Shown: in pieces, positions 4,477 through 37,182 of the stretch
How the letters are laid out: every line of letters begins with the position of its first letter
Position numbering within the stretch: position 1 is the first letter of the stretch
From: Arcobacter sp. CECT 8983
GTDB taxonomy: Bacteria; Campylobacterota; Campylobacteria; Campylobacterales; Arcobacteraceae
Reading direction: 5' to 3'
DNA length: 64,000 nucleotides
NCBI RefSeq assembly: GCF_004118855.1
Contig: NZ_PDKF01000004.1
Coordinates: forward strand, 583,604-647,603
Notes under the pieces: generated by a model
Told to the model about the DNA's origin: nothing
Seen by the model: the letters and a program-made list of their open reading frames with translations, nothing else
Database searches by the model: none
Made by a program: the position numbers and the translations under genes

Positions 4477-5125
4477 AAATTATCCCATCTTCAATAGATA
4501 ACTGTCTAAATCTAATACCAAAGTTTTTTGGAACTCTATGTGTTACAACAACTACTGTGATACCTAATTGTTCATTTGCACCTTTTAAAAGATTCCATAC
4601 AACTTCTGCTGAGTAATCATCAAGGTTACCTGTTGGTTCATCAGCTATGATTATTTTAGGGTTGTGTGCAAGAGCCCTAGCAACTGCAACTCTTTGTTGT
4701 TCACCACCACTTAGTTCATTTGGATAATATCCTGCTCTGTGTGATAGTTTTACATGGTTTAAAAGTTTTGTTGCTTGTTCCCTTGAAATATCATTTGAAT
4801 AACCATTGATTTTAAGAGGAATCATAATATTCTCTTCAATAGTCCACTCTTCTATTAATTTATAATCTTGGAAAATAATACCAATATCTTTTCTAAGACT
4901 TCTTAGGGATTTTCCCTTTATTCCAAAAACATTTTGTCCTGCAATTCTTAGTTCTCCATGTTTTAGTGGAATTTCTCCATAAAATGATTTTAGTAAAGTA
5001 GATTTTCCACTACCACTTGTTCCACCAATAAATATAAACTCTTTTTCTCTTATTGAAAAGTTACCTTTTTTAATAACATACTTGTTTTCATCATAAGAAA
5101 GATATATATTTTTGGCTTGTATCAT
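4463..5125 (-). CDS. ftsE: Cell division ATP-binding protein FtsE
   Basis: ABC-type ATPase that powers FtsX at the septum. The Walker A motif [10 protein letters not shown] is near residue 34, the signature [15 protein letters not shown] near 138 and the Walker [13 protein letters not shown] near 158. The switch histidine is in VVTHR. Length (220 aa) is normal for FtsE. Its start codon overlaps the trmB stop by one base and its end overlaps ftsX. Confidence 0.95.
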
Positions 5126-6318
5126 TATTTTAATATCTCTTTTATTTTATTGTGTGCTTTTATATTAGAACTTGTTGGAAGAGGAAGATCTTGAAAATAT
5201 GAAGCTTTTCCCTCTCTTACAATAATATATTTGCTTAAAGGTCTATCAAAATTACCAAAGGTAACTTGAATAAGTCCAGAATTAGTTTCATCTTCTATAA
5301 CGAATATATCTTCAACATGAACAAAGTAGTCTTTTTCAACTAAAGTTTTAGTAGGAATACTTTTTATAGTCTCTTCAAAGTTTACTTCTTCTTCAAAGTT
5401 AAAATCAAAGTCGTGATTTATTTCTTTATCTTCTTGTTCACATAATAAAACTACATCATAAATATGTTTACCTTGTTTCTTCCATCTATCTTCATATTTA
5501 CTCGATACAGGTAAGTCTTTATTTATATCTATAGTAATTTTACCCTTTGGCAGATTCGTAAGTAACTCCGTACAGTAGTCAAAATACTTTCTACTATCTG
5601 TTCTTAATTCTAAAGTACCATTTACTTTTAATACTCTTAATGCTTCATTGATAAAATCACTTGAATAAACTCTTCTATGTGGTTTTTTATCCCAAGGAAC
5701 AGGAAAGTGAACAAAAATTCTGCCAACTTTATTTGATTTGATAAATTCCATAAAAAGTCTTGCATCATAGTTTACAACTAAAATATTAGTTAACTCTTGA
5801 ATTTTTACTTGTTTTAAAAGTTGTTCAATAGAAGGTGTATGAATCTCTAAACCTATAAACTGAACATCAGGATTCTCTTTTGCTTGGTGTAAAAGATGTC
5901 TTCCACTACCAAAACCAATCTCAATTTGAATCTCTTTTTCTGTATCAAAATCATTTAAAAAATAGTTAATATCTTTTAAATAATCTTGTGTAGGTTCAAT
6001 TTTTTGATTTATATTTTGAGTATTTGCAAATAAAATTTCTGATTCAGTAATCTTTGCATAAGAGTTTAAAGAATCTTTGATTAGTTGTACAGGACTTACT
6101 CTTGTAACTTTATCTGGTTTTAAAAGTAAGTTGTCATCTTTTTGTCTTAGAGTTAATAAAAACTCTTTATTATCTCTTGTTGTTGAAATTTTATACTCTG
6201 TTTTTCTTGGGCTTTGTGTAAAATTATATGACTTTGCAATAAAATTAAAGCTAGTATCATCTATTGAAGATGGTACCTTTAATTTTTTGTTTGTTTTATT
6301 AAATACTATATGAGGCAT
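5125..6318 (-). CDS. trmB: tRNA (guanine-N7-)-methyltransferase TrmB, long form
   Basis: Methylates G46 of tRNA using S-adenosylmethionine. The catalytic core spans about residues 125-285, with the SAM motif IEIGFGSGRHLL, an acidic LEIH and the VHFPVPWDKKPHRR segment typical of TrmB. At 397 aa it is much longer than the roughly 240-residue E. coli enzyme, with an N-terminal extension of about 110 residues and a C-terminal one of about 110. Long TrmB proteins are known in the epsilon group. It lies between the FN3 lipoprotein gene (4-base gap) and ftsE (overlap). Confidence 0.92.
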   Translation of the reverse strand: MPHIVFNKTNKKLKVPSSIDDTSFNFIAKSYNFTQSPRKTEYKISTTRDNKEFLLTLRQKDDNLLLKPDKVTRVSPVQLIKDSLNSYAKITESEILFANTQNINQKIEPTQDYLKDINYFLNDFDTEKEIQIEIGFGSGRHLLHQAKENPDVQFIGLEIHTPSIEQLLKQVKIQELTNILVVNYDARLFMEFIKSNKVGRIFVHFPVPWDKKPHRRVYSSDFINEALRVLKVNGTLELRTDSRKYFDYCTELLTNLPKGKITIDINKDLPVSSKYEDRWKKQGKHIYDVVLLCEQEDKEINHDFDFNFEEEVNFEETIKSIPTKTLVEKDYFVHVEDIFVIEDETNSGLIQVTFGNFDRPLSKYIIVREGKASYFQDLPLPTSSNIKAHNKIKEILK

Positions 6319-6322
6319 TTAT

Positions 6323-7597
6323 TTAGTTCATCTCCACTAACTTAGGTAAAATAAGCTCTGTTTCTTTTGTTATTTCAGAGTGAATCCCATTTTTGTCAAC
6401 TGCTTGAATAGCATAGCTATACTGCACACCTCTTACAATATCTTTATCTTCAAATCTAAGTGCGGTAATATCTTGATATTTAATAGTCTTATCTTTGAAA
6501 AAACCTTCTTTTATAGTTTTATAAACAGTATATGAAACTGCTCTATCATCACCTGGTTGCCAATTTAAAATAGCTTTTGCCCCTTGAATTTGTGCAAGAG
6601 TCATTACAGGTTTTCTTAGTTTATTTAAAGTAACACCCATTACAGAGTTAACATTTAAATTACTTTCTAGACCATCTTTATCTACTGAACTTACTTTATA
6701 AAAATATACTTTTCCATCTTCATTAACGAAATCTTCATAATTTAAAGTTTCGGCATTAACTGTTTTTATAACATCAAAACCACTTTGATCATCTGTACTT
6801 CTATAGATATTATATTTAACTACATCAGCAGATTTTGAAGGTTCCCATTTTAAACTGATTTTTCTAGGTAAGTCAGTTGTAGCTTTTAAACTTAAAATTC
6901 CTTCGGGTAAAGGTTTTGTTTGAGCTTTTACTAAATCACTTGGCATAGTTTCTAAACCATCAAATGTTTTACCAATAACTCTATAGTGATAAACAACATT
7001 GTCTTCTAAGTCTAAATCAATATACTCAGCTTGTAATCTTCCATCTAAAGTTTCAATCTCTTCCCACTTGCTAGTTGCAGGAGTTTTTCTTTGAATTTCA
7101 TAACTTTCGATTCTTTCACTACTATGTGGTCTCCAAACAATTTTAATTTGTCTTGGAAGATTTGAAATAGCTTGAATAAAACTTACTCCTTCCATTAGTG
7201 GAAGTGTTGAAACTACATAGTCATTAGTAGTTTTTGATTCAAATTCTGTAGCAGTAGCAGAAGAAATTTTATAAACATATTTTGTACTAGGTTCCACATC
7301 TTCATCTACATAATGTGTTGTGTATCTATTTTCAACTGTATCAATTAGTTTTAATTTTGCACCATCTTTTTGTAAATTTGCTCTATAAAAATGATATCCT
7401 GTAACTCTAGGGTCATCAACTTTTCTCCACTCAAAAGCAATTGCATTGATATCTGGAAGAGTTCTAATAGAAGCAGAATCAACTACTTCAAGAGTTTCAT
7501 TAATTTTTGGTTTTGTAGTATCGAAGTTTTTTAAACTACATCCACTAAGTAGTAAAATTAAAGCACTTAACGATGTTAGTTTCATCAATTTTGTCAT
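6323..7597 (-). CDS. Lipoprotein with repeated fibronectin type III domains
   Basis: Predicted envelope lipoprotein. A short signal sequence ends in the lipobox LLSGC, with the lipidated cysteine at residue 20. Four FN3-like repeats of about 95 residues follow, recognisable by recurring phrases such as (I/L)xWxP and Y(K/R)(I/V)xxVD. Such domains usually mediate binding; the partner is unknown. The start has GGAG seven bases upstream and lies inside the 3' end of the rluD-like gene, in another reading frame, by 53 bases. It is co-directional with the trmB-ftsEX block. Confidence 0.85.
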   Translation of the reverse strand: MTKLMKLTSLSALILLLSGCSLKNFDTTKPKINETLEVVDSASIRTLPDINAIAFEWRKVDDPRVTGYHFYRANLQKDGAKLKLIDTVENRYTTHYVDEDVEPSTKYVYKISSATATEFESKTTNDYVVSTLPLMEGVSFIQAISNLPRQIKIVWRPHSSERIESYEIQRKTPATSKWEEIETLDGRLQAEYIDLDLEDNVVYHYRVIGKTFDGLETMPSDLVKAQTKPLPEGILSLKATTDLPRKISLKWEPSKSADVVKYNIYRSTDDQSGFDVIKTVNAETLNYEDFVNEDGKVYFYKVSSVDKDGLESNLNVNSVMGVTLNKLRKPVMTLAQIQGAKAILNWQPGDDRAVSYTVYKTIKEGFFKDKTIKYQDITALRFEDKDIVRGVQYSYAIQAVDKNGIHSEITKETELILPKLVEMN

Positions 7598-29740: not shown

Positions 29741-29990
29741 CTCAATATCTTAACAATCAGATCATTTAAAAAATTATATCCAATATAAATGACAGTAAAA
29801 AATATTACATATTGAAATATATTATTTTATATTTTATTAAAATATGCCTATTTATAGGATTTTATCTAACTTAATATTATAACATTGAAATGTATTCCTA
29901 TTAAGTGATTTTATGGGCAATTAATATATAATGTATTACTAATAAATAGTTAGACAAATACAATAAAGTAAACTTCTTAAGTATATTTGA

Positions 29991-29996
29991 TATAAT
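29991..29996 (+). promoter_or_regulatory. -10 box for the Wadjet-like operon
   Basis: TATAAT in an extremely AT-rich stretch about 43 bases before the first codon of the SMC-like gene. No convincing -35. Confidence 0.5.
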
Positions 29997-30038
29997 ATAT
30001 ATTAATATAAAACTTATAAGACTGCAAAAGGATAGAAA

Positions 30039-32651
30039 ATATTAAATAAAATAATTTTATTAAATAGTGCAAAATATCATAAAGCAGTTATATCATTTGA
30101 TGATGTAGATTCTATTCAGATTGTTGGTAAAAATAATATTGGTAAAACATCGCTAATTAGTGTATTGAATTTTTTATATATGCCAAATCAAAATGATTGG
30201 AACTTTGATCATAATCCACTGATGACATTAAAGTATTATTTTAAAAAGTTAGATAAAAACTATATCATTTTTGAAATATTTAAAAATAGTTACTTTTGTA
30301 TTTTAATAAAAAGAAATGATAACAATAAACTTGAATATTATAAGATTAACTCTTCTTATGATGATATTGAAAATAGCTTTTTTGAAAAACGAGAAGATGG
30401 TAATCTTCTTTTAGATTTTGAAACGATACAATCTAATTTGATAGAAAATATAGAAGAGCTAGATTTAAATAAATTTAAAGCACTATTATACGGTAAATCA
30501 AAAAGAGAAAAAACTATTATTTGGTTAAACGATAATAGTACACAAAAAACATTTAGCAAAATTTATAAATATCTATTGAATACAAAGTTGATTTCTAATG
30601 AAAAAGTGAAAGAATCACTTTTAATAGCTGATAAAAAGCATGAAGAGATAAGAGAATTTACCACTAGTGACAATCAAAAGATAGAAGATATTAAAAGGCA
30701 CCAAAATTATATTGGTAAGTTAAAAAGTATTAAAAAAGATTTTTTTGAATTTAAAGATAAGGTTGAAGAATATTATATTAAAAACGAGAACCTCAATAGT
30801 TTTTATCTAAGCTTCAATACTCTTTATAATGAAGAGTTTAATAGAGTTATTCAAGAAAAAAATACTTTAATACTAGCCGTGGAAAATACTCAATCAGAAC
30901 AAATTAAACCACTTGAAAAAGAAAAATCTGATCTTGATATAAAATTTGGTACTTGCTTAGCAAATATACAAAGTGTAATAAAAAACCATACTAATAAAGA
31001 ACAAGAAATATTAAAAATAGAAAAATATGATTCAATTGAATTATTACAAGCTTCATTACAAAATATCGAAACAGAAAAAAAGAACTTAGAATATGATTTA
31101 TCCCAAATAGAAAGAGAGAACTATACTCAAGAAAAGATACAAGGACTTATATCTAAACAAAAAACAGATATAGATCAACTAGAAGCTCAAATAAATAACT
31201 TTGAAAACCTATTAATACACCATATCGCAGAAGATGAGAAAATAAAAAAAGTCATCAACAATGTAGTCTCTGATAAGATTTTAAATTTGGATAAAGAAAA
31301 AATTATCTCTATCATTAGAAGTGTAGATGAAAATATTTTAAATATTTTTGATGGAAAAATTGATATATCTAATATAAAAGAAAGAGATTTTATAACTATA
31401 GATAGTTTAAATACCCAATTACAAAAGACTAAAAAAGAGTTAGAAAAATATACATCTATACACACAAATATTCAAAATTTTAATGATAAACAAAATATAT
31501 TAAAACAATTAGAAAAAGATATAAAAACTATAAACTCACAAATTGAAGAGATTGAAAAGTTACCAAAACTTAAAGAAGAGTTATTAAAGTTTGAAAACGA
31601 AAAGAAAAAATTAGAAGATGAAAAACAGGATATAGAAAAAGAGAAAGAAAAATTAAAAAAGCAAATTGAAGAAATTAAAGCTTCTATTGAAGAGAAAAAT
31701 AAAACTATTAAAAACTATGAAGAGCGATTAAAAACTTTAGAGATTTACTATAAAGGTTTTGAGGATGAATTACAGAACTTGCAATTAAATTTTAAGGATG
31801 AAAAACCTGATAAATCAATTGATGATTTAGTCACTAATATAAAGACTTTGAAAACAACTTTATATACTTTAAAAAGTAAAAAAGATAGTGAATTTTTTAA
31901 ATTAAAAAATATTTTACAAAAAGAACACTCTTACGAAAAGGAATTTATAAAAGAGATTGAAGAGGAGTTGTCTTCTATCAAAGATAGGCAAAACTCAATC
32001 GATACACTTATTGATTCTATAACCAATGATATTAGTAAACCTACTAGTGATTTTTTAAAACATTTGGAACAATTTGAAGGCTATATCTCATCCATAAATA
32101 CCAAATTTAAAAAATATAAAATATCTGATTTAGAGTCAATCGAGATTAAACTTCATCCAAATAAAATTTTAATCAATGAATTAAAACTAATATCAAATAT
32201 AGACAAAAACACTCTTTTTCAAGATGATTATAATCAAAAAATAGAGATTTTAAAAGAGTATATTGGTAAATCTAAGAAGTTTCATTTATCTGATCTATTT
32301 GATATAAATTTTATAATCAATGGGAATGTGGCAAACCTAAATAAACAAACTGAATCAAATGGAACGGATAGAATACTTAAAGTTACACTTTTTATTTTAA
32401 TAATGAGAGATTTAATCGTTCAGGATAGTGATAATAAATTAGTAATTTATATAGATGAACTAGGTGAAGTTGATGATGATAATATTTATGAGCTAATTAA
32501 AAGATGTAAAGAAAATAACTTTATTCCAATATTTGCAGCCCCTGACAAAAAGCCACATATTGATAAATATTATGACTTGATCGAAGATAGCAGTACAAAA
32601 AAAATTACAGTTGATGATAGTAGGGCAATTTATGTCAAAGATAGAGTTTGA
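30039..32651 (+). CDS. Compact SMC-like ATPase (JetC/MksB-like)
   Basis: About 870 residues. The Walker A motif IVGKNNIGKTSL lies near residue 30, long Glu/Lys-rich coiled coils span roughly 160-700, a signature-like NGTDRILK is near 775 and Walker B LVIYIDELGEV near 800. This is the head-coil-head layout of SMC/Rad50 proteins, but shorter than most JetC or MukB. The Walker A part is in frame, yet no ATG, GTG or TTG precedes it after the stop at 30033-30035. AAAGGA at 30027-30032 points to an ATA at 30039 as start; starting at the first TTG (30165) would lose Walker A. It overlaps the next gene by 20 bases. Role in plasmid or foreign DNA defence is inferred from its partners. Confidence 0.8.
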   Translation: MLNKIILLNSAKYHKAVISFDDVDSIQIVGKNNIGKTSLISVLNFLYMPNQNDWNFDHNPLMTLKYYFKKLDKNYIIFEIFKNSYFCILIKRNDNNKLEYYKINSSYDDIENSFFEKREDGNLLLDFETIQSNLIENIEELDLNKFKALLYGKSKREKTIIWLNDNSTQKTFSKIYKYLLNTKLISNEKVKESLLIADKKHEEIREFTTSDNQKIEDIKRHQNYIGKLKSIKKDFFEFKDKVEEYYIKNENLNSFYLSFNTLYNEEFNRVIQEKNTLILAVENTQSEQIKPLEKEKSDLDIKFGTCLANIQSVIKNHTNKEQEILKIEKYDSIELLQASLQNIETEKKNLEYDLSQIERENYTQEKIQGLISKQKTDIDQLEAQINNFENLLIHHIAEDEKIKKVINNVVSDKILNLDKEKIISIIRSVDENILNIFDGKIDISNIKERDFITIDSLNTQLQKTKKELEKYTSIHTNIQNFNDKQNILKQLEKDIKTINSQIEEIEKLPKLKEELLKFENEKKKLEDEKQDIEKEKEKLKKQIEEIKASIEEKNKTIKNYEERLKTLEIYYKGFEDELQNLQLNFKDEKPDKSIDDLVTNIKTLKTTLYTLKSKKDSEFFKLKNILQKEHSYEKEFIKEIEEELSSIKDRQNSIDTLIDSITNDISKPTSDFLKHLEQFEGYISSINTKFKKYKISDLESIEIKLHPNKILINELKLISNIDKNTLFQDDYNQKIEILKEYIGKSKKFHLSDLFDINFIINGNVANLNKQTESNGTDRILKVTLFILIMRDLIVQDSDNKLVIYIDELGEVDDDNIYELIKRCKENNFIPIFAAPDKKPHIDKYYDLIEDSSTKKITVDDSRAIYVKDRV

Positions 32652-33426
32652 ATTTTATACTAAATTAAAAAATAATCGAATGGCAAAAAAGCCAATTCCT
32701 ACAACAATAAAGAACTCTTCTATTTTCAAAAGTTTAGTTAATTCAAAAATTATTGAGCCTATACAAAGGGGAAAAGGTTATATTAAAATATTAAATGAAA
32801 AAAAATTTAATGTATTTTATTTGAAAAAATTTCCAAACCCAGGTTGTGAAATAAAAACAGAAATTGATAATCAAAAAAAATTTAAAAATACAAAATCAAC
32901 CCATATTGAAAAAGATAGAGTTATTTTTATTCGTGGATTTAAAGATATTGTAATTAATGATAAAAAGACAGATTTAAACCAAATTACATCTGAGCATAAG
33001 CTTTTTAGCACAATCTTACAAAACCTTACGACTCAAAAACTATGCTTTGTAGAAAACTTAGAGCCTTTTTTAAACATTGAAAAACTATTGGGGAAAGATT
33101 ATATTTATGTTCACTTTTACGGTAGATTTCCAAAAAAAGAGATACTTGAAAAAATAGCGTGTGAAGAGTATTTGCATTTTGGGGATTATGATTTTGTAGG
33201 ACTTAGTGAATATTTAAAAGCAAATACAGTTTATAAAAATGCCAAACTATATATCCCTGATAACTTTGAGCATTTATTTGATGAGTATTCAACCCCAAGA
33301 AAAAAGAAAGACACTATTTACAAAAATATAAAAGAAACACATAATCAAGAAGTGATTTATATAGTAAACAAAATTAAAAATAGCAATAAAATCTTAGAGC
33401 AGCAAATTATAATGGATAAGTTATGA
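32632..33426 (+). CDS. Toprim-domain protein, JetD-like (DUF2220-type)
   Basis: About 264 residues. The C-terminal half has the topoisomerase VI-like Toprim pattern: a glutamate in FVENLEPF (near residue 140), then HFYGR, and the metal-binding DxD in HFGDYDFVGL (near 185), then LYIPDNFEHL. This matches the JetD/MksG DNA-cleaving subunit. The N-terminus looks like a basic winged helix. I use the ATG at 32632 because AGGG lies six bases upstream and the protein begins MSKIEFEF. It overlaps the ATPase gene upstream and the next gene by ATGA. Confidence 0.72.
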   Translation: MSKIEFEFYTKLKNNRMAKKPIPTTIKNSSIFKSLVNSKIIEPIQRGKGYIKILNEKKFNVFYLKKFPNPGCEIKTEIDNQKKFKNTKSTHIEKDRVIFIRGFKDIVINDKKTDLNQITSEHKLFSTILQNLTTQKLCFVENLEPFLNIEKLLGKDYIYVHFYGRFPKKEILEKIACEEYLHFGDYDFVGLSEYLKANTVYKNAKLYIPDNFEHLFDEYSTPRKKKDTIYKNIKETHNQEVIYIVNKIKNSNKILEQQIIMDKL

Positions 33427-34595
33427 TTGATCCAAAAAAAATATTAAGATTTTTAGAAGAGTATTTTGATGAAATCAAAACTATATATAAAATTAATAAA
33501 CAAAATGGGGTGATACTTAAAGAAGAGTGCGAAACTATTTTTAATAGTAGTAATGTATTGATTGATAACTTAATAGAATATGAGATAATCGAGCAAAGAG
33601 TTGATGATACTTTTACACTTAATGAAACTTATGGTGGTTTTATCTCTTTTTTACTAGATGATTTTTCTCTTGATATGCCAGAACAGATTGAAAAATATTA
33701 TAAGTCATTGGATTCTTTATATAGAAAATTGAAAGTCTCAAACAATAAAAATGAAACTATAAAAACAATAGAAGCATTAAATGATGAAATAAATAAATTT
33801 GAAAATCAATTACGAAAAAACATTACTAAGCTAATAAAAGAAACCAAATATATAAAAGCAAATAATCAAAAACTTGATTATCCCAAAAAACTTCAAAAGG
33901 CTTCACAGCTTACAACAACTTATATTGAGCCATTAAATATTATTTTGCAGAACCATAGTGAATCCATTTTATATATTATTGATAATATTATTGACGAATC
34001 TAGTAAACAAAGATTTAGCAATAATGATGAAAATTTAAAAAAGATTTATACAAAACTTTATAATACATATTATCAAACTAAAAAAGAGATACTGAATCAA
34101 AATAGACTTTTAATAAATGAAGTTATACCACTGCTTGATAGAATAAAATCAGGTAGCGATATTCTAACAGGTTTTATTAACTTCTTAAATAACAATACTG
34201 CATATAATGTACCTGTCCTTTTGGATAAACAAAGGGATAAAACATATTCAACAAATGCAGAATATGAAGCACAAAATGTTTGGGAGGGATATATCGGTAT
34301 AAACGAAGATGTCATTATTTCCAAGACACCACCTTTAGAAAATATTTGGATTTATGATAAACAAAAATATAAAAATAAAATGCTTAAGTCCTTGCCGATA
34401 GAAAACTTTTATATTTGGATATATGAAGAGTTGAGAGATGAATTGGATATAATTCAAAGTAAAAACTTCTTAGATTTATCAAAATTAATTTTTGATAAAG
34501 ATATAGAAATTGAATACACAAATCAAAGAATAGATATAGATTTAGCAGATAAAATTATAAATGTACCAACTATTAAAATTAGGAGTTTAAATTGA
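33423..34595 (+). CDS. Probable kleisin-like subunit (JetA/MksF-like)
   Basis: 390 residues, mostly helical, with an N-terminal winged-helix-like segment (about 1-75), a long middle helical region (about 90-260) and a small C-terminal domain. No catalytic motif. Size, helical character and place beside SMC-like and MukE-like genes suggest the kleisin that bridges the SMC heads. Direct sequence similarity is not obvious to me, so this is mainly from context. ATGA and TTGA overlaps couple it to both neighbours. Confidence 0.5.
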   Translation: MIDPKKILRFLEEYFDEIKTIYKINKQNGVILKEECETIFNSSNVLIDNLIEYEIIEQRVDDTFTLNETYGGFISFLLDDFSLDMPEQIEKYYKSLDSLYRKLKVSNNKNETIKTIEALNDEINKFENQLRKNITKLIKETKYIKANNQKLDYPKKLQKASQLTTTYIEPLNIILQNHSESILYIIDNIIDESSKQRFSNNDENLKKIYTKLYNTYYQTKKEILNQNRLLINEVIPLLDRIKSGSDILTGFINFLNNNTAYNVPVLLDKQRDKTYSTNAEYEAQNVWEGYIGINEDVIISKTPPLENIWIYDKQKYKNKMLKSLPIENFYIWIYEELRDELDIIQSKNFLDLSKLIFDKDIEIEYTNQRIDIDLADKIINVPTIKIRSLN

Positions 34596-35119
34596 ATTAT
34601 CCAACTAAACATTATGAAATTGTACAAAACCTACTAAACGGTAAATTTATTTTACATAAAGATGAAATCTTTGATATAGTGTCAGGTAATTATGATTTTT
34701 ATAAAATGTTTTTTAAAAAAAGTTTTAAATATGACCTAATTAAAACATCGGAAGTAATATATTTAGCTTCAGATAATACAAGTGAAAAGTTTTCAAGAAA
34801 TTTAATGTTAGTTTTGGCTATTTTAGTGGATTACATTAATCTGCAAGGGAAAGATATATACGAAGAGCTTTATAAAAGTTATAAAATCAGTGAAATCGAA
34901 AGTATAATTAAAAATTCAAGTTATAAAAGTGTATGTCGAAATATCGTAATAGAACAATTATTCAAAAATGATTGTCAAAAACGCAATATTATTAACTATA
35001 ATAGTGAATATGATACATTTCAATTTACTAGTGCAATAAATGTTTTTTTAGAACAAGCAAAAGATATATCAAAAATGAATTACATTGAAGAGGAAGAAGG
35101 ACAAAAAGAGTTAATATGA
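34592..35119 (+). CDS. Probable MukE/JetB-like subunit
   Basis: 175 residues, winged-helix-like and acidic at the C-terminus. Length and pattern (FYKMFFKKSFKYDLIKTSEVIYL, then LVLAILVDYI) fit the small MukE/DUF4194-type partner of kleisins. The start is TTG at 34592, supported by AGGAG at 34581-34585 and overlap with the previous stop. Assignment depends on context. Confidence 0.5.
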   Translation: MNYPTKHYEIVQNLLNGKFILHKDEIFDIVSGNYDFYKMFFKKSFKYDLIKTSEVIYLASDNTSEKFSRNLMLVLAILVDYINLQGKDIYEELYKSYKISEIESIIKNSSYKSVCRNIVIEQLFKNDCQKRNIINYNSEYDTFQFTSAINVFLEQAKDISKMNYIEEEEGQKELI

Positions 35120-35802
35120 AAAAACTAAACGAACTAACACTAAAACAAAGAGAAGAACTTTTTAGACAATTAAGAATATCAATCACACACCACTCAAACG
35201 CAATGGAAGGAACAACATTATCGTACGGTGAAACGAAAGAGTTATTAGAGCTTGGTCACACTGCAGGACATAAACCATTAGGTGAACAGCTTGTAATCTT
35301 AGGTTTTGCAAAAGCTTATGATGTCATAGTTCGTGAAGCTACAAATAAAGAAAATGTTATTGACAGTAGCTTTATAAAAGATATACATGCCATTATGTTT
35401 GAGGATGCTTTAAAAGTAGCACCTCAATATGTATCTAAACCAATAGGAGCATATAGATTAGATGAGCGATACATCAAAGGTGTAGATATAAAATTATCTT
35501 TACCACATATGATTTCAAACGATATTGAAAATTTATTATATAGATTTCAAAGTAATCAAATGAGTTTGCTAAATATATCAGAGTTCCATATATTATTTGA
35601 AAGAATCCATCCATTTGCAGATGGAAATGGAAGAGTAGGACGATTGATAATGGCATATCAAGCTATACAAAATAATATAGTTCCGCCACTTATTGAAAAT
35701 GAACATAGAGATGGTTATCTACAAGCGATAAATGATAAAGATGATTTGTGTGAGTTTTTAGATAGAAGCATCTCTAAAAGCTTAAAATTGATAGATTTAT
35801 AA
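35116..35802 (+). CDS. Fic-domain protein (probable AMP transferase) in the Wadjet-like operon
   Basis: Fic enzymes transfer AMP or related groups from nucleotides to target proteins. The full catalytic motif HPFADGNGRVGR is present near residue 155, and an N-terminal SNAMEGT matches the inhibitory S/TxxxE(G/N) helix, so the enzyme is probably auto-inhibited. Its ATG overlaps the previous stop (ATGA), making it the fifth coupled gene. A role as regulator or as a suicide module of the system is inferred; a stand-alone Fic caught in the operon is possible. Confidence 0.85.
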   Translation: MKKLNELTLKQREELFRQLRISITHHSNAMEGTTLSYGETKELLELGHTAGHKPLGEQLVILGFAKAYDVIVREATNKENVIDSSFIKDIHAIMFEDALKVAPQYVSKPIGAYRLDERYIKGVDIKLSLPHMISNDIENLLYRFQSNQMSLLNISEFHILFERIHPFADGNGRVGRLIMAYQAIQNNIVPPLIENEHRDGYLQAINDKDDLCEFLDRSISKSLKLIDL

Positions 35803-35825
35803 GTAAATTGTATAACAAAACCTAG

Positions 35826-35850
35826 CACCGAATAGTATACTCTGTCGGTG
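35826..35850. repeat. Small GC-rich inverted repeat after the Fic gene
   Basis: CACCGA and TCGGTG separated by 13 bases. It is more GC-rich than its surroundings and lies between the Fic and GNAT genes. No T-run follows, so it may be a weak stop signal or a recombination scar. Confidence 0.35.
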
Positions 35851-35880
35851 AAGTCAACTATTATATTTAAAGAATGAATC

Positions 35881-36321
35881 ATGAATATTCAAAAAGTTAC
35901 AAAAGAAAATTATCAGGAATTAATCAATGTCTGGGAAGCTTCTGTTAGAGCAACACATAATTTTTTACCAGAGGGAAAAATTGCAGAGTTAAAACTTCTG
36001 ATTTTGGAACAGTATTTTGATGCTGTTAATTTGCGTTGTTTTAAAGATAGTAACGATAAAATATTAGCATTTATTGGTGTTGCTGATTCGAAAATTGAAA
36101 TGTTATTTGTAGATCCAGATTATATCGGTCAAAAAATCGGTCGAAAGTTAACTAAATACGCCATTGAGAATTTTGGCGCATCAAAAGTTGACGTAAACGA
36201 ACAAAATCCCGATGCAATTGGTTTTTATCAGCGAATGGGATTTATTCAATCCGGTCGCTCTGTACTTGATGGACAAGGTAACCCATTTCCTTTAATAAAC
36301 ATGAAATTAAAGAAAATATAA
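35881..36321 (+). CDS. GNAT-family N-acetyltransferase
   Basis: Acetyl-CoA-dependent acetyltransferase of 146 residues. The acetyl-CoA loop is in VDPDYIGQKIGRKLTKYAIE, and EQNPDAIGFYQRMGF is the usual C-terminal motif. The substrate is unknown. Its codons (CGC, CCC, CCG) are richer in C and G than neighbours, suggesting recent transfer. It sits between short TATAACAAA direct repeats at 35811-35819 and 36317-36325. Confidence 0.85.
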   Translation: MNIQKVTKENYQELINVWEASVRATHNFLPEGKIAELKLLILEQYFDAVNLRCFKDSNDKILAFIGVADSKIEMLFVDPDYIGQKIGRKLTKYAIENFGASKVDVNEQNPDAIGFYQRMGFIQSGRSVLDGQGNPFPLINMKLKKI

Positions 36322-36326
36322 CAAAT

Positions 36327-36495
36327 CAGAGGAGCCAATAAATTACTCTATGGGGAATTATCGACTCATATTAAATATTATACAAAAAACGATTCAAATG
36401 ACATGGATGAAGCAGTACTAAAAGTAAAAATGCTGAACCCACCATTAGATGATGAAAATAATGATAAATATCATCATAAATTAAAAAGTGTATAG
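36327..36495 (+). pseudogene. Gene remnant after the GNAT gene
   Basis: An open frame without a start codon runs through IRGANKLLYGELST and LKVKMLNPPLDDEN to a TAG. It looks coding-like, but I could not place it in a family. It may be the tail of a lost gene. Low certainty. Confidence 0.3.
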
Positions 36496-36574
36496 AAAAA
36501 TATAAATTACCATTACCAAGCAAGGTATAATAAAACAATAAAATTAATATAATTTCAATTCACTACATTTATGT

Positions 36575-36580
36575 TATAAT
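36575..36580 (+). promoter_or_regulatory. Extended -10 promoter of the toxin-antitoxin pair
   Basis: TGTTATAAT fits the extended TGnTATAAT form and is 27 bases before the antitoxin start. No clear -35. Confidence 0.6.
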
Positions 36581-36607
36581 CAAAAATAAAATTCAATGGA
36601 GTTTATT

Positions 36608-36787
36608 ATGACTGCACCAAAACAAGAAGCTAAAAAAGTTATTGATTCTTTGCCAGATGATTCATCTTATGATGAAATATTAAAAGAATTAGCTTTTGAT
36701 AGAATGATTCAAAAGGGTTTAAAAGATTCAAAGGATAATAAAACCATTTCAAACGATGAAATGAAAAATAGAATCAAACAATGGTAA
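36608..36787 (+). CDS. Antitoxin of a ParE/RelE-type module
   Basis: 59-residue acidic protein starting MTAPKQEAKKVIDSLPDDSSYDE. I use the second ATG because GGAG lies six bases before it. Antitoxins of this kind bind their toxin through the C-terminal helix and often repress their own promoter. Its end overlaps the toxin start by seven bases. Confidence 0.75.
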   Translation: MTAPKQEAKKVIDSLPDDSSYDEILKELAFDRMIQKGLKDSKDNKTISNDEMKNRIKQW

Positions 36788-37074
36788 ATATAAATTGGAC
36801 AAATGAAGCAGAATTTTGGTTAAAAGATATTCATGATTATATAGCACTAGATAAAAAATCTATTGCTAAAAAAGTTGTCAATGAAATTTTTAATAAAGTT
36901 CAAATCTTACAATCTTTTCCAAAAATTGGATATGAATATCTAAATGATGAAAATAAAGAAATTAGAATACTCCTTTATGGGCATTATCGTATTGCTTATT
37001 TAATTAAAAATGAAAATACAATAGATATTTTAGGTGTATTTCATGGAGCATTAGATATTGAAAGGTATTTATAA
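36781..37074 (+). CDS. ParE/RelE-superfamily toxin
   Basis: 97 residues beginning VNINWTNEAEFWLKDIHDYI, then a FPKIGYEY turn and RILLYGHYRIAYLI strand, which is the ParE-like pattern. ParE toxins poison DNA gyrase and RelE toxins cut mRNA; which applies here cannot be told. Coupled to the antitoxin upstream. Confidence 0.82.
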   Translation: MVNINWTNEAEFWLKDIHDYIALDKKSIAKKVVNEIFNKVQILQSFPKIGYEYLNDENKEIRILLYGHYRIAYLIKNENTIDILGVFHGALDIERYL

Positions 37075-37182
37075 TCCATATCAAAACCTTAGAAAAAAAA
37101 CAAAGATGTGCTTGTAATAGTTTAAAGTTTATCTTATAAACTAAGAAAAAAATAGATTTGAATTAGCAAGTATAAAATAGCT

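Follow-up and report, generated by a model that had tools for sequence, protein, structure and literature searches.

We analysed a 64,000-nucleotide stretch of the Arcobacter sp. CECT 8983 genome (contig NZ_PDKF01000004.1; hereafter the window), in which positions 30039-35802 carry five co-directional + strand genes that overlap their neighbours in the list of open reading frames (ORFs). The predicted products are, in order, an SMC ATPase of 870 residues, a Toprim protein of 264, a kleisin-like protein of 390, an MksE/KITE protein of 175 and a Fic-domain protein of 228. The same order had been proposed in an earlier sequence-only reading of this DNA, and all five ORFs are confirmed on the + strand. 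In Jet nomenclature the first four genes run C-D-A-B. The SMC and JetD-like genes overlap by 20 nucleotides, the latter being best read from ATG 32632, and overlaps of 4 nucleotides are found at each of the JetD/kleisin, kleisin/MksE and MksE/Fic junctions. These overlaps agree with the proposal that the genes form one unit, but the Fic gene, which follows MksE at two of the six loci readable on that side, is not a conserved part of it. The features of the four-gene core are as follows.

30026-30032, + strand: AAAAGGA, probably the ribosome-binding site for SMC, six bases ahead of the putative ATA start; the spacing to ATT is the same in the Sulfurimonas locus L025
30039-32651, + strand: SMC ATPase (JetC/MksB-like), 870 residues, putative ATA start (DUF3584 match near the cut-off; family alignment; head tree)
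30126-30149, + strand: Walker A, GKNNIGKT, of the NNxGK form also seen in the short A-B-C-D rows (alignment; tree rows)
31179-31418, + strand: predicted hinge-like block, conserved, SMC residues about 381-460 (conservation and heptad scan)
32352-32378, + strand: ESNGTDRIL, which we take to be the ABC signature region (alignment)
32439-32483, + strand: Walker B and D-loop region, LVIYIDELGEVDDDN (alignment)
32632-33426, + strand: JetD/MksG-like protein with a winged-helix-like part (about 1-72) and a Toprim part (about 92-264) (model md0bd5271c839; hhalign)
33049-33057, + strand: VEN with the Toprim glutamate E141, equated with MksG E236 by motif (alignment; numbering of PMC10123090)
33181-33192, + strand: GDYD with the Toprim acidic pair D185 and D187 (alignments)
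33394-33405, + strand: LEQQ at the place of JetD LEQE, the second Glu being Gln (joint 26-row alignment)
33423-34595, + strand: kleisin (JetA/MksF/MukF-like), 390 residues (model me58e421fe122; Foldseek; VIA-align)
34592-35119, + strand: MksE/JetB-like KITE protein, 175 residues, TTG start (PF21980)

The proposal that this order departs from the usual JetA-B-C-D is borne out by a gene-order survey, in which C-D-A-B recurs at five loci in two phyla: the window, L024 (with the SMC gene cut at the contig start), L022 from Sulfurospirillum (on a contig shared with L027), L023 from a Campylobacterales metagenome-assembled genome (as is L028) and L026 from Cyclobacteriaceae (Bacteroidota). A further relative in Sulfurimonas OB5 has the order C-A-B (L021 and L025, the SMC gene being split between contigs). 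Identities of the subunits of L024, L022, L023 and L026 to those of the window are 25-82% per subunit in the alignments made. Given the shared order in these four loci and a match of the MksE protein to Pfam PF21980 at 44.7 bits (cut-off 27), the operon is no chance arrangement.

The group is rare. Searches with a kleisin profile gave matches in 5 of the order's 298 genomes, of which one is spurious, in 4 of 397 genomes of the phylum (including the same spurious one) and in 2 of 395 genomes of the phylum of L026, namely its own genome and one spurious match. The matches discarded as spurious were G360 (E 3.2e-4), which has three internal stops, and G823, whose ORF in L058 begins like a dehydrogenase by eye. 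Within the order, 37 MksE places were found in 34 of 248 genomes. The SMC gene comes first at four of them, all belonging to this group (G000, G315, G264 and contig 57 of G329); at the remaining 33 it lies 3' of MksE in 31 and was not seen in two. Among these 31, JetD follows SMC in 13, precedes MksE in 4 and is absent from the stretch in 14, some of which are cut by contig ends. The 'A' in these other orders denotes position and size, since their kleisins were not identified by profile. The SMC gene is not adjacent to MksE in L065 and L066 and is in pieces in L071, and L061 has an extra ATPase upstream. No relative was found among phage records searched with the SMC, plasmid records searched with the kleisin or viral contigs covered by four scans; among plasmid records, the window SMC had five weak matches and the SMC of L026 had ten.

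Three observations concern the other Mks loci. A second Mks group in Campylobacterales (group 2; L062, L063, L074, L076, L077, L087, L091 and others) has SMCs of 1181-1236 residues and JetDs of 246-303, with JetD after SMC or before MksE; in L063, L076 and L077, the three loci run against PADLOC, all matches were weak. In the type I locus L066, two ORFs of 436 and 419 residues lie between MksE and SMC (4751-7284). Sulfurimonas OB5 carries a type I locus (L071) alongside its C-A-B locus, with the SMC in three ORFs of 187, 163 and 795 residues.

The SMC frame is open over 30036-32651 and holds no ATG, GTG or TTG ahead of Walker A; its first usual start codon is TTG 30165, downstream of that motif. 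The codon aligned with ATA 30039 is ATT in L025, GTG in L022 and ATG in L026, and both the ATA of the window and the ATT of L025 stand six bases 3' of AAAGGA. ATA 30039 is the likely start. A frame error at this point was considered and rejected in view of the ATT and GTG found at the same codon in L025 and L022.

Walker A, signature and Walker B are kept in the three full-length SMC rows of the alignment, and the protein has a long coiled coil. In PADLOC the SMC matches LmuB (E 6.7e-5), JetC1 (1.7e-4) and JetC2 (0.0025), each within the coiled coil. That LmuB is the best of these by E-value could point to a Lamassu or OLD/Gabija-type SMC-like system with only superficial likeness to Wadjet, a reading that we consider very improbable: the LmuB match is confined to residues 459-568 (JetC1, 466-658) and does not extend over the ATPase heads, as it would be expected to do in Lamassu; the same operon has genes for a kleisin-like protein and for MksE; and the first matches of the Toprim model are MksG, JetD and topoisomerase VI-A (Topo VI-A).

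At 870 residues the ATPase is indeed shorter than the usual JetC, as had been remarked (1109-1121 in type I loci L068 and L081). A heuristic scan of conservation and heptads places its hinge-like block at about residues 381-460; the corresponding stretches are about 421-620 in L081 of type I and 521-600 in L077 of group 2. By the same heuristic the block spans about 80 residues versus about 200 in type I, and the arms, of about 175 and 230 residues, are only slightly under those of type I and shorter than those of group 2. The idea that the protein is short mainly through its arms was rejected, the hinge-like block being so much smaller than in type I by this measure. It has been proposed that the bypass of obstacles is linked to the hinge channel and to arm length, and SMCs with channel-less hinges are described as tending to longer coiled coils, a few Wadjet-III proteins excepted (PMC12647877). 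The C-D-A-B clade would be an exception to this trend, provided that its hinge is truly channel-less, and its small motor would offer a test of the proposed link.

The Toprim protein was modelled with a predicted local distance difference test score (pLDDT) of 80 and a predicted template modelling score (pTM) of 0.62. The first match of the model is MksG (8b7f; Foldseek E 5.8e-5; Z 13.1, root-mean-square deviation (rmsd) 2.8, 151 residues aligned), so the outcome named at the outset as fatal to a Wadjet assignment, a protein matching OLD or other families only, did not occur. Profile alignment with hhalign links it to the JetDs of group 2 (1.6e-21), of the short A-B-C-D loci described below (1.9e-19) and of type I (4.9e-5, probability 67.7). 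The group 2 profile included three rows that are not JetD (L078, L083 and L070, with an ANPPY methylase-like motif), which were left out of the gene-order count above; the joint JetD alignment likewise has 26 rows of which three are not JetD. The VEN, GR and GDYD motifs first noticed in the sequence are present, as are GKNNIGKT and IDELGEVDDDN. Each of the five C-D-A-B JetDs retains the Toprim glutamate and DxD. MksG is reported to bind metal via E236 and D279, and its E349 and E351 to match two conserved JetD glutamates proposed as nucleophiles (PMC10123090). The first Glu of this C-terminal E-x-E is found in 5/5 C-D-A-B JetDs, and both are kept in the type I and other JetD rows. JetD matches in the family are mostly weak (13 of 15, E 1.6e-6 to 7.6e-4).

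The sequence-only reading would also have been abandoned if the 390- and 175-residue proteins had proved unrelated to kleisin or MukE, and this outcome was not seen. The kleisin model comprises a winged helix, a helical bundle, a low-confidence linker (243-307) and a C-terminal winged helix. Its first six Foldseek matches come from MukBEF or MukE-MukF entries (E 2.2e-5 to 6e-3, two of the six under 1e-3), and the sizes of the matched chains fit MukF; the identities of PDB chains as MukF or JetA are assigned from chain length. Aligned with VIA-align, the model gives Z 13.4 to 7nz2_C1 (rmsd 12.3, 231 residues) and Z 9.8 to the JetA-size chain 9qe0_E of a Wadjet-II JetABC entry (residues 1-390, 312 aligned, rmsd 33.7); absence of a family from the VIA-align lists was not taken as evidence. 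There is no relevant Pfam match for the kleisin, and the 175-residue protein passes PF21980 as stated above. In hhalign the kleisin profile reaches the short A-B-C-D loci at 1.6e-12 and group 2 at 4.4e-4 (probability 33.7), and the MksE profile reaches group 2 at 1.7e-5 (78.3) and the short A-B-C-D loci at 3.8e-4 (35.9). Five control pairs of mismatched subunits gave 0.046 to 0.52; links near 1e-4 are nevertheless modest, because their probabilities are only 34-68.

Among 32 Mks/Wadjet SMC head sequences placed in a tree, the four full-length rows of the C-D-A-B group are monophyletic (100/98), and their sister (98/98) is a set of four A-B-C-D loci with short SMCs from plasmid records of Salinibacter, Halioglobus, Polaromonas and Pseudomonas amygdali. 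The tree omitted L064, L065, L070, L071, L079, L080, L085, L088-L091 and L100 and the partial SMCs of L021, L024, L025 and L029, and the placement of L023, L026, L093 and L095 is less sure because their branches are long. NNxGK is the form of Walker A in all eight rows of both clades. Like the C-D-A-B group, the short A-B-C-D loci have a small SMC (926-967 residues from the head), a small JetD and, where tested, weak PADLOC matches (in L093, best JetD1 28.8 bits and LmuB 30.7). Unlike it, they are ordered A-B-C-D by gene position and keep the second JetD Glu in 4/4. A single order change on the branch to the C-D-A-B clade is the simplest reading.

The four sister loci (L093, L094, L095 and L098) are relatives of an anti-plasmid system that are themselves carried by plasmids, in records of 76-972 kb. 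The annotated start of the Salinibacter SMC (L093:6244) is 3' of Walker A, and the annotated protein of 879 residues is therefore too short. A Parabacteroides plasmid record (L097:4191-9621) has kleisin-, MksE- and SMC-size genes (the last of 1209 residues), with no JetD-size gene after the SMC on the same strand.

By sequence and modelling, then, SMC, kleisin and MksE/KITE subunits are co-encoded with a JetD/MksG-like winged-helix/Toprim protein, and these are the four subunit kinds (SMC, kleisin, KITE and Toprim fold) of Wadjet/MksBEFG systems in the broad sense. We favor, at a probability of about 0.7, a divergent Wadjet/MksBEFG-type system, presumably a loop-extruding, shape-sensing nuclease directed against small circular DNA. 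This assignment, first suggested from the sequence, is supported by the MksE match over its cut-off and by the models of the kleisin and the Toprim protein, which lead to MukBEF and MksG, respectively. Support also comes from the Toprim Glu and DxD, the hhalign links, the recurrence of the four-gene order in two phyla and the single clade of C-D-A-B SMC heads, as well as from the patchy distribution, from a variable AT-rich island around the operon and from the McrBC-type gene pair beside L022, whose other neighbour is a helicase gene.

Compared with known systems, the operon shares with Wadjet type I/MksBEFG the four subunit kinds, the MksG/JetD fold and the Toprim Glu and DxD. It differs from type I in its order, in the size of the nuclease (264 residues versus 386-419 in L066, L068 and L081) and in a kleisin and MksE that profiles do not link to their type I counterparts. 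The order described for MksBEFG is mksFEBG/JetABCD (PMC10123090). In Wadjet type II (Neobacillus vireti, 9qe0) the JetA-size chain aligns with the window kleisin over its full length, whereas the JetC2 model matches only weakly and both order and subunit sizes differ. The Toprim part aligns with topoisomerase VI-A/Spo11 (Z 10.5-11.5), but the window protein is encoded in an SMC operon. The kleisin fold is common to MukBEF, to which the window operon adds a Toprim protein; MukB is also much larger than the window SMC. The operon is a rare divergent relative of the Wadjet/Mks complexes, with which other bacteria detect and cleave plasmid DNA, and has a small motor and a rotated gene order in two phyla. 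In searches of an open-access library, no paper returned describes the C-D-A-B form in its title or abstract opening; a broad 2020 survey of ABC ATPases lay outside these results, and novelty is therefore stated with care.

Several results weigh against this assignment. Neither the JetA-D model matches nor the JetA-B-C-D (mksFEBG) order that define Wadjet types I-III in PADLOC were found: the Toprim, kleisin and MksE proteins have no Jet match, and that of the SMC to JetC1 is the weak one given above. The library itself works here, since seven type I proteins of the same taxonomic order have best scores of 364-1325 bits. Pfam matches fall short of their cut-offs for DUF3584 on the C-terminal head of the SMC (29.1 bits, E 2.4e-7; cut-off 31) and for JetD_C on the Toprim protein (13.5 bits; cut-off 22). 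Searches of PDB sequences with the subunit profiles returned four coiled-coil-type chains and no JetA-D or Muk for the SMC (limit E 0.1) and, at a limit of E 10, three chance-level chains for the kleisin, one chain of no relevance for MksE and nothing for JetD. Type I JetA and JetB are not reached by the kleisin and MksE profiles (hhalign E 0.96 and 0.39). The kleisin model, built from four sequences, is only fair (pLDDT 68, pTM 0.41), its alignments to MukBEF entries have an rmsd of about 12 A, and an unrelated syntaxin-complex chain (2xhe_B) scores equally high at Z 13.5, so the helical bundle alone proves little. After MksG, the Toprim model matches JetD (7til, Z 11.9) in a tie with Topo VI-A (Z 11.5). 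Finally, the tree holds only Mks/Wadjet SMCs and is therefore no test of membership.

Two further points against the assignment concern the Toprim protein, and they are shared with the view that the operon encodes a condensin-like MksBEF complex for DNA organisation, with Toprim dispensable or decaying. When four genomes were searched with a JetD profile, the gene turned up in three and not in the 99% complete genome of Sulfurimonas OB5, whose locus is C-A-B; and the second Glu of LEQE is Gln in 3/5 C-D-A-B JetDs (LEQQ in the window, L024 and L022; LEQE in L023 and L026). JetD is also missing from the stretch at 14 of the 33 other Campylobacterales MksE loci, with the caveat of contig ends noted above. 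Against this view stand the patchy presence, the island location and the JetD with its Toprim acids in 5/6 loci of the group; we regard the condensin-like alternative as unlikely. The JetD-less relative and the E-to-Q change at a proposed catalytic position would be native comparisons for studying nuclease control.

For the Wadjet-type nuclease that we favor, a mechanism can be transferred by homology from type I Wadjet, where plasmid cutting is reported for purified complexes and total extrusion is a proposed model (PMC10586767). Two SMC dimers joined by kleisin would load on DNA and extrude a loop driven by ATP. On a small circle extrusion would run to completion and the two motors would meet, a state that may dock and open the Toprim dimer and so permit a metal-dependent double-strand cut, and linear or very large DNA would escape. 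The tight gene overlaps may set co-production of the four subunits, and it is a guess that the rare ATA start keeps the SMC scarce. Fic, where present, would be either a passenger or a second effector that is only loosely tied to the system.

The Fic gene adds these features.

35116-35802, + strand: Fic-domain protein, 228 residues, accessory (PF02661; PADLOC PDC-S04; motifs)
35194-35211, + strand: SNAMEG, N-terminal in Fic (sequence)
35608-35643, + strand: Fic motif, HPFADGNGRVGR (sequence)

The protein matches PF02661 at 60.7 bits (cut-off 24), and in PADLOC it scores best against the candidate family PDC-S04 (127.4 bits). Both HPFADGNGRVGR and SNAMEG are intact in the window and in L024, and they fit what we take to be the general forms, HxFx(D/E)GNGRxxR and the N-terminal, self-inhibitory (S/T)xxxE(G/N); by its motifs this is a predicted class II Fic protein (AMP transferase). 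These intact motifs and the close linkage to MksE (a 4-nucleotide overlap in the window and an 18-nucleotide gap in L024) would suit anti-phage or abortive defence, with DNA sensed by the SMC core and a host target AMPylated by Fic as a main effector. This is quite improbable, as four of the six loci with a readable downstream side have no Fic next to MksE, and the G+C content of the Fic gene (30.6%) differs from that of the C-D-A-B genes (23.3%). Fic as a core subunit was considered and rejected.

A bolder version of the Wadjet assignment, which we hold only tentatively and think rather unlikely, is a separate subtype whose core is a minimal SMC. With short arms and a small hinge that probably lacks a channel, its motor would be blocked by obstacles and would in effect read whether DNA is bare; Toprim would be an exchangeable effector, lost in Sulfurimonas and with its second proposed catalytic Glu altered in three others, and two genomes would add a self-inhibited Fic released by the same sensor. 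More broadly, a catalogue of defence systems that relies on profiles overlooks a branch of SMC-nuclease operons that occurs in two phyla and has its sister branch in plasmid records from two others.

The operon lies in an AT-rich variable island beside guaB.

29973-37172, no strand: variable island from guaB to a LysE-like gene, within which lie the operon and genes for a GNAT protein and a ParE-type toxin (congener comparison; G+C content)

The LysE-like gene at the island edge was named by eye. In the nearest congener (97% GuaB) no DNA matches 29973-37172 and other genes take its place; the operon DNA is absent from all four congeners compared, of which L120 shares the GNAT gene region only and L117 and L118 carry other genes there. 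The rest of the window has a G+C content of 28.9%. The ParE-type toxin gene (50.9 bits, cut-off 23) is at 36590-37074, inside the island, after a 65-residue ORF without a family match. In other loci, namely L022, L026 and L029, DUF2779 proteins are encoded close to SMC, and in L026 so is an HTH_11/WCX regulator.

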